A DNA stretch of 40,010 bases from Gammaproteobacteria bacterium (lineage in GTDB: Bacteria; Pseudomonadota; Gammaproteobacteria; Ga0077536), in assembly GCA_016209015.1 (NCBI GenBank), contig JACQWY010000059.1:1-40010 (forward strand), written 5' to 3'. The stretch's first letter is position 1; the number at the start of each line of letters is the position of its first letter. Positions 23,858-25,545 of this stretch are shown here, one piece after another. The notes below the pieces were generated by a model that saw nothing but the letters and a program-made list of their open reading frames with translations, ran no database searches and was not told where the DNA came from. The position numbers and the translations under genes are program-made.

Positions 23858-24541
23858 TCACCTGATCGCCCACCCTCCGCACACGGGGAACACCTGGCCG
23901 ACGAAGCACGCGGCGGCATCGCTGCACAGATACGCCGCGAACTCCGCGTCCTCGCGCGCGCCGACGAGGCGGCCGAGCGGCACTTCGCGTTTGAGGCGCT
24001 CCTGGAAGCGCGGATTCGCCTGCACCTCGGGCGGGAAGTACGTCGGGTTCTCGACGAAGTTCTGGGCGATCGCGTTGACCTGGATGCCGAGCGGCGCGAC
24101 CTCGACACCGAGCGCCTGTACGTAGGCGAGCTGCGCGCCGCGCGCGGCGCTGTAGGTCGTCGTGCGCTTCATGCCGCGCAGCGCCGAGGCGCTGCCCATG
24201 ACGAGAATGCGGCCGCTGCCGCGCTCGCTCATCTGCGGCAGCACCGCGCGGCACAGCCGCGGCAGCGGATCGACGAGCGCCGCGAAGACTTCGCGCCATT
24301 CTGCTTCCTGGACTTCGACGGCCGGCGTCGCAGGCGCCGGGATGGCGAGATTCGCGAGCAGCACGTCGACGCGGCCGGCGTTCTCGACCGCACGTTCCGC
24401 GGCATCGACTTCGACGAGCGCACCCTCGTCCGCGATCACCGTGGCGCCATGCGTCGCGAGCACCTCGCAGAGCATCGGCCCCATGAAGTCGTGCGCCTGG
24501 GTGACGAGTATCCGTTTGCCCGCGAGCATGCCTGTCGTCAT
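23858..24541 (-). CDS. Predicted halohydrin dehalogenase (SDR-derived)
   Basis: A 227-residue protein with the short-chain dehydrogenase fold but altered key sites. The glycine-rich cofactor loop is replaced by T14-QAHD-F19-M-G21, the T-x4-F/Y-x-G halide-site signature of halohydrin dehalogenases. The catalytic set is S117, Y130 and R134, in the spacing S-x12-Y-x3-R; Arg replaces the SDR lysine. NFVENPTYFPPEV and GQVFPVCGGW sit where HheC has its halide-pocket and C-terminal segments. Such enzymes interconvert vicinal halohydrins and epoxides, releasing halide, and open epoxides with azide, cyanide or nitrite; no NAD(P) is used. The ATG at 24541 was chosen over an upstream extension. It lies downstream of the LLM oxidoreductase on the same strand. 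The physiological substrate is unknown. Confidence 0.85.
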   Translation of the reverse strand: MTTGMLAGKRILVTQAHDFMGPMLCEVLATHGATVIADEGALVEVDAAERAVENAGRVDVLLANLAIPAPATPAVEVQEAEWREVFAALVDPLPRLCRAVLPQMSERGSGRILVMGSASALRGMKRTTTYSAARGAQLAYVQALGVEVAPLGIQVNAIAQNFVENPTYFPPEVQANPRFQERLKREVPLGRLVGAREDAEFAAYLCSDAAACFVGQVFPVCGGWAIR

Positions 24542-24580
24542 GGTCACTCCTCGAAAGTCACGACGACGTACCGACTTGTG

Positions 24581-24678
24581 CACCGGGGTCGGAGGGACTT
24601 TTCGTTGACCACAGGGAAAGCGGCCCGCGCGCCTCGGCGTTTACCTCCGGTCAAGAAAAAGTCCCTCCGACCCCGGTG
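24581..24678. repeat. 98-bp perfect-arm palindrome between LLM and dehalogenase genes
   Basis: Left arm 24581-24602 (CACCGGGGTCGGAGGGACTT then TT) is the exact reverse complement of 24657-24678. A second inner pair, TTGACC (24605-24610) and GGTCAA (24649-24654), extends the stem. The element begins 6 bases after the LLM stop codon and ends 39 bases before the dehalogenase ATG. Its GGGGTC end recalls the hairpin at 349-424, which has a different arm sequence. It may be a MITE/REP-type insertion, and as RNA could limit read-through. Confidence 0.85.
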
Positions 24679-24684
24679 GATAAC

Positions 24685-25545
24685 TCAGATCGCGCCGATG
24701 CGCCGGCCGATGTCGGCGTAGCGGTCGAGCCAGCGCAGCACCGTGTCGCGGTCCTCCGTCGGGCAGCGCGGGATGGCGCGCGTGACGAAGCCGAGATCGG
24801 CGAAGCGCCGGAGATCGTCCTCGGGCGTCTCGAAGATGTCGAACATCGAGATCGAAACCGCTTCCGGGTCGCGGCCGTTCTCCTTCAGGCGCCGGTGGAG
24901 ATCTTCGACGTCTGCCTTCAGATCGCCGTGGAAGAGATCGATCGGGATCCAGCCGTCGCCGAAATCCGCGACGCGCTTCCTGCCCCACACCGAGCCGAAC
25001 GTGCCGAGGATGACGGGCGGATGCGGCCGCTGGATCGGTTTCGGATAAGACCACACGCGTTCGAAGTTCACGTACTCGCCATGGAAGCTCGCCTCTTCCT
25101 CCGTCCACAGCGCCTTCATCGCCTTCACGCGCTCCTCGAGCACTTTCCAGCGCTTGTCGAAAGGCGTGCCGTGATTCTCCATCTCCTCGCGATTCCAGCC
25201 CGCGCCGACGCCGAACAGGAATCTGCCGTTGGAGAGGCGATCGACCGTCGCGACCGTCTTCGCGAGCGCGAGCGGATCGTGCTCGACGACGAGACAGATC
25301 CCGGTGCCGAGCTTGATCGTCTTCGTCACGACCGCGGCCGCCGCGGCGCTCGCGAACGGATCGGACATGTGGATGTATTCCTTCGGCAGCGGCCCGTTGC
25401 CCGGCCACGGCGAGAGCCGCGAGGCCGGGATGTGCGTGTGCTCCGGAAACCAGATCGATTCGAAGCCGCGCTCCTCGGCCGCGACCGCGAGCTCGTCGGC
25501 GCGCATCGTATATTCGGTATTGAAACTGAAGACACCGAGCTTCAT
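24685..25545 (-). CDS. LLM-class flavin/F420-dependent oxidoreductase
   Basis: Luciferase-like TIM-barrel oxidoreductase of 286 residues. Family features: the opening MKLGVFSFNTEYTM, the substrate-proximal WFPEHTHIP, the block TIKLGTGICLVVEHDPLALA followed by TVDRLSNGRFLFGVGAGWN, and the later PVILGTFGSVWGRKRVADF. It groups with LLM proteins annotated as F420-dependent, but FMN use cannot be excluded, and no F420 biosynthesis gene is in the window. The ATG at 25545 has GGGGAGG upstream; a longer frame to 25626 looks non-coding. The cupin gene lies 91 bases upstream and the dehalogenase gene 143 bases downstream on the same strand, suggesting a small catabolic cluster. Confidence 0.9.
   Translation of the reverse strand: MKLGVFSFNTEYTMRADELAVAAEERGFESIWFPEHTHIPASRLSPWPGNGPLPKEYIHMSDPFASAAAAAVVTKTIKLGTGICLVVEHDPLALAKTVATVDRLSNGRFLFGVGAGWNREEMENHGTPFDKRWKVLEERVKAMKALWTEEEASFHGEYVNFERVWSYPKPIQRPHPPVILGTFGSVWGRKRVADFGDGWIPIDLFHGDLKADVEDLHRRLKENGRDPEAVSISMFDIFETPEDDLRRFADLGFVTRAIPRCPTEDRDTVLRWLDRYADIGRRIGAI

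Follow-up and report, generated by a model that had tools for sequence, protein, structure and literature searches.

The signature motifs of halohydrin dehalogenases (HHDHs) were reportedly defined in a 2014 paper. Two motifs, T-x4-F/Y-x-G and S-x12-Y-x3-R, are described in two publications as fingerprints that separate HHDHs from ordinary SDRs (PMC11976700; PMC4989007). The D-type enzymes were already numerous in 2016, with dozens of members, and the D-type entries of a review catalogue HheD19 to HheD38, report 57-95% identity to tested enzymes for these proteins and call HheD to HheD6 experimentally verified (PMC4989007). Among the D-type enzymes, HheD2 comes from a gammaproteobacterium and is given as an HHDH of 230 residues (PMC5892878); it corresponds to entry 7b73 (PMC9629495), while 8xxb is, by its entry title, the HheD8 triple mutant with chloride. 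HheB (4zd6) and HheC (1pwx) belong to the B and C types. We describe here a gene, hheD, from the window (the whole stretch of 40,010 nucleotides that was analysed), which almost certainly encodes a D-type HHDH (EC 4.5.1.-); independently of NAD(P), this enzyme would convert vicinal halohydrins to epoxides and back. Membership of the HHDH family and the D subtype are established at the level of sequence comparison, and the reaction would be that of the characterised relatives. The gene is thus a real but ordinary addition to a known, well-populated family, relatives of which have already been crystallised and tested.

The closest described system is HheD2, which is like the hheD protein in length (227 versus 230 amino acids), in both motifs and in the pocket residues; 156 of 225 aligned residues are identical (69.3%) and 31% differ. 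The HheD8 triple mutant (141/221, 64%) has the same motifs, and the wild-type residues A69 and M124 named in its entry title are also those of the hheD protein, whereas R127 of HheD8 is replaced by T127. HheB (107/225, 48%) shares with the hheD protein the short form that lacks the stretch after beta-2, but it carries Tyr instead of Phe in motif 1 and falls into a separate clade of the tree. HheC contains both motifs and aligns without gaps around the catalytic residues, with 19 of 60 residues identical, as had been stated in the first-pass annotation for the segment around S117. However, HheC differs in its overall identity of 31% (69/220), in a C-terminal extension with Trp249 and in Pro175 at the place of Gln160. 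Entries 6a41 (82/220) and HheA2 (79/216) are similarly far off, the identities of these three lying between 31 and 37%.

According to the ORF list, hheD is an intact gene of 227 amino acids on the minus strand, running from its ATG at 24541 to the end of the stop codon at 23858 (23858..24541, stop codon included). A GAGGAG ribosome-binding site (24547..24552, minus strand) lies 5 nt before the ATG; a longer, GTG-started frame opens at 24583. With coordinates computed from the ATG at 24541, motif 1 spans 24479..24502 (minus strand; T14 to G21, TQAHDFMG, T14-x4-F19-x-G21) and would form a nucleophile-pocket loop in place of the glycine-rich loop of SDRs. Motif 2 spans 24140..24193 (minus strand; S117-x12-Y130-x3-R134, reading SASALRGMKRTTTYSAAR from S117) and contains the predicted catalytic residues Ser117, Tyr130 and Arg134. 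These are the residues and positions named in the first-pass annotation, which had given no strand; all of them are found in the intact minus-strand frame. Among the stop-free frames of at least 200 codons in the window, six match motif 1 and two match motif 2, while a single frame contains both; in addition, of 102 sequences compared, a set to which the window and three duplicate contigs belong, 101 retain both motifs. Judged from these sequence patterns, the co-occurrence of the two motifs in hheD is therefore far beyond chance. The sole exception among the 102 comes from Plasticicumulans acidivorans (L034:8001-8669), a close D-type relative (77% identity) with Leu for the Thr of motif 1, which offers a natural test of this residue.

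Placement among the known enzymes gives the same picture. A search of PDB sequences returns HheD2 and 8xxb at the top, followed by HheB, 6a41 and HheA types, and the first NAD(P)-dependent SDR appears later. In a tree of 47 proteins, which includes HheB, HheA2 and HheC but contains no E-, F- or G-type HHDH references, the hheD protein groups in a D clade with HheD2, the HheD8 mutant 8xxb and other close relatives (support 97/97); HheB lies in an adjoining group, and HheA2, HheC and 6a41 are more distant. Within the D clade most of the branching order lacks resolution, and the branches of the SDRs, HheA2 and HheC are long. The identity to HheD2, the only one compared of the verified enzymes HheD to HheD6, falls within the 57-95% range. 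The phylogenetic placement proposed as a check in the first-pass annotation, which had not specified a type among HheA to HheG, now fixes the subtype as D.

The genes next to hheD are less informative. On its 5' side lie genes for an LLM-class protein (TIGR03619, over cut-off) and a cupin (Pfam match), and all three genes are co-directional. A cluster of these genes had been highlighted earlier, and it would be conceivable that the HHDH acts in one pathway with the LLM oxidoreductase and the cupin, for example with an oxygenation as the first step and the processing of an epoxide or halohydrin as the next. We consider such a joint pathway improbable, although, besides the common direction, LLM-class genes about 46% identical to that of the window stand directly downstream of an HHDH in three of 20 family loci (L123, L124 and L129, all with more distant HHDHs). 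Against it, not one of the 80 loci of HHDHs with 70-79% identity, many of which are short contigs, has an LLM gene next to the HHDH; among these loci, L101 has one weak LLM match about 5 kb away and L080 has only a cupin match, about 7 kb away. Conversely, the nearest homologues of the LLM protein (65-86% identity) are not accompanied by matches to HHDH, cupin or Lon in the 13 genomes looked at among the 16 family genomes with a homologue of at least 64% identity, and a weak match beside one of them (L160) is an ordinary SDR by its motifs. Moreover, at E 1e-40 LLM genes are present in 35 of the 36 genomes of the family, a single genome having as many as 17, and the gap of 143 bp between the LLM gene and hheD is mostly occupied by a dispersed inverted repeat. 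The cluster is thus not conserved and probably reflects chance proximity; with LLM genes so abundant in the family, an accidental adjacency of one of them to hheD is likely. An operon of hheD with the LLM and cupin genes was set aside because LLM adjacency is not conserved in relatives. Neither a scan for terminators nor Rfam at gathering thresholds gave matches in the region, and a sigma-70-like match, by consensus only, is located 5' of the cupin gene (26223-26194).

The repeat between the two genes (24573..24686) consists of 47-nt arms that are 83% complementary; it lies outside the enzyme gene, and the longer GTG-started frame of hheD opens within one arm. With 0-1 mismatch allowed, its 16-base core, GGTCGGAGGGACTTTT, occurs 95 times in the own genome, compared to 0 for the reversed control. 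At G000:C20:62773-65074, a Y1_Tnp match (64605-64937) is flanked on both sides by copies of this repeat. Y1_Tnp is the type of REP-associated transposases, and from the position of these copies the element may represent a REP system that includes a dedicated transposase. Another copy lies about 40 bp from the end of a Pfam match to an EHN-type epoxide hydrolase (G000:C28:12912-13223).

A wider survey covered 95 of the 102 loci, after removal of the three duplicate contigs and of L029, L046, L062 and L070, in which the hhe frame was not placed by the simple gene caller. Among 68 co-directional upstream neighbours DUF6172 was the commonest Pfam family (9 cases, all others at most 3), and among 38 downstream neighbours HMGL-like proteins came first (5), followed by luciferase-like proteins and glycosyltransferase families (3 each). 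No shared pathway and no widely conserved neighbour was found among the 95 HHDH loci, a negative result that is weakened by the many short contigs and the crude gene caller. The own genome also encodes, over cut-off and all on other contigs, two EHN-type epoxide hydrolases, one protein of the limonene-epoxide-hydrolase type and two type II haloacid dehalogenases. An epoxide hydrolase was considered as the enzyme downstream of the HHDH and dropped: EHN proteins are encoded by 32 of the 36 genomes of the family, whether or not an HHDH is present, and are therefore not a specific indication.

A more basic alternative would be that the hheD product is an NAD(P)-dependent SDR oxidoreductase in which the HHDH-like residues occur by coincidence, a reading that we regard as very unlikely. 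It can draw on the general libraries, which recognise the protein as SDR only (Pfam adh_short and adh_short_C2, NCBIfam SDR models), and on its overall fold, which is that of SDRs. However, of the 187 NCBIfam matches, each of the 25 listed stays below half of its cut-off, and the classical signature, TG-x3-G-x-G together with Ser-Tyr-Lys, is absent from the protein. With the SDR L005 as contrast, the alignment places Phe19 where L005 has a glycine of the dinucleotide-binding motif and Arg134 where SDRs have the Lys of the triad, and a stretch of about 28 residues, which follows beta-2 in L005, is missing, as it is in HheB and HheD2. All seven SDRs of the own genome that were compared carry T-[GA]-x3-[GA]-x-G and Y-x3-K and none has the HHDH motif; in the tree they are split from the HHDHs with support of 100/99, the hheD protein being placed with HheD2. 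Among the SDR rows, L002 begins late in tree and alignment, its frame being read from the first Met, and L007 is cut in the alignment.

Structural comparison is in line with an HHDH, yet it is less specific. The predicted model, which was built with 32 relatives, has a mean pLDDT of 83.7. Foldseek rows 1-9 are HheD2, HheD8 and HheB entries, and so are rows 1-4 of VIA-align (Z 30.4 to 28.5), whereas row 5 of the latter is already an ordinary SDR (Z 27.1). Thus, the modelled fold is consistent with an HHDH but does not by itself separate HHDHs from SDRs. Two loops of the model, 163-167 (the presumed halide-pocket loop) and 187-192, have pLDDT values below 50, and since the model is poor exactly at the pocket loops, halide pocket and closed NAD site are putative features of the structure. 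In the alignment the pocket columns are HHDH-like: Asn161, Tyr168 and Phe169 are found as in HheD2 and HheA2, while L005 has Gly, Leu and Asn, and in an alignment of 33 sequences the positions 160-162 and 168-170 show either no variation or a conservation of at least 90%. The motifs, the identity to HheD2 and the tree hence back the view of the first-pass annotation that the protein belongs to the halohydrin dehalogenases rather than to the NAD(P)-dependent SDRs; the fold search agrees with less specificity. Just as remote is an HHDH paralogue that has lost its catalytic activity or taken on another function, for which we found no supporting evidence and against which stand the intact catalytic and pocket residues, their conservation in relatives, the intact frame and the good ribosome-binding site.

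For the active D-type HHDH, the reaction and the roles of Ser, Tyr and Arg can be proposed along the lines given in the mechanistic part of a review (PMC4989007). Ser117 would hold the hydroxyl group of a vicinal haloalcohol, and Tyr130, its pKa lowered by Arg134, would accept the substrate proton. The resulting alkoxide would displace the neighbouring halide to form the epoxide, and the halide would leave via a pocket composed of two loops, T14-G21 and 160-169 (QNFVENPTYF). The reverse direction might proceed with halide, azide, cyanide or nitrite, and no NAD(P) would be used in the reaction.

HHDHs are frequent in the bacterial family of the window and patchy and rare across the class. At E 1e-40, homologues were found in 22 of 58 genomes searched, all of them among the 36 genomes of the window's family and none among the 22 of other families; in a class-wide sample at the stricter E 1e-60, five of 369 genomes have an HHDH, two of these outside the family. 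In GTDB species genomes, 428 stretches match a peptide pattern, and at E 1e-3 a relative is encoded by 213; the best 80 of the 213 are 70-79% identical and, by record title, come mostly from Beta- and Gammaproteobacteria and from some other groups. Judged by such titles, the genomes of Zoogloea oleivorans and Curvibacter lanceolatus also contain close relatives. For the D type, the earlier description of a small family therefore no longer holds, given its numbers in 2016 and at least 80 loci at 70-79% identity. Among 72,556 records of a plasmid collection, one has a match to the hheD protein at E 1e-30. Several single cases deserve mention. Nine genomes of the window's family (L122-L129 and L029) carry another group of HHDHs, 46-56% identical to the hheD protein and about equally near to HheB (45-55%), with which they group (93/64); possibly they represent another subtype. 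Plasmid pSA2 of Novosphingobium resinovorum, predicted to be conjugative, encodes an HHDH-like protein (L130:7989-8666) with 54.5% identity to HheB and Ser for the Thr of motif 1, directly 3' of an epoxide hydrolase family gene. Contigs with D-type HHDHs are also present in two public bins from metagenomes that bear the titles 'Rickettsia typhi' and 'Klebsiella pneumoniae' (L072 and L101); at least the title of L101 looks wrong, as its contig agrees in number and in length (10438) with G003:C116 from a genome of the window's family.

For biocatalysis, hheD adds one D-type enzyme to a family in which many are already available. What HHDHs do naturally is left open where a 2016 review discusses it (PMC4989007), and among the matches listed in a search of the literature on D-type gene clusters and physiology there was no HHDH paper by title. 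The hheD locus itself gives no handle on their natural role. Of modest value is the frequency of HHDH genes in one bacterial family in which no conserved neighbourhood was found, and this bears on the question of what HHDHs do in nature. Tentatively, HHDHs might be a normal accessory gene of this family, present in 22 of 36 genomes, apparently in two groups and with no fixed neighbours. Being a normal accessory gene would speak for a native job other than the degradation of industrial haloalcohols; the substrate might rather be a common natural halohydrin or epoxide, and the reaction perhaps one in which anions of the cell open the ring of endogenous epoxides.
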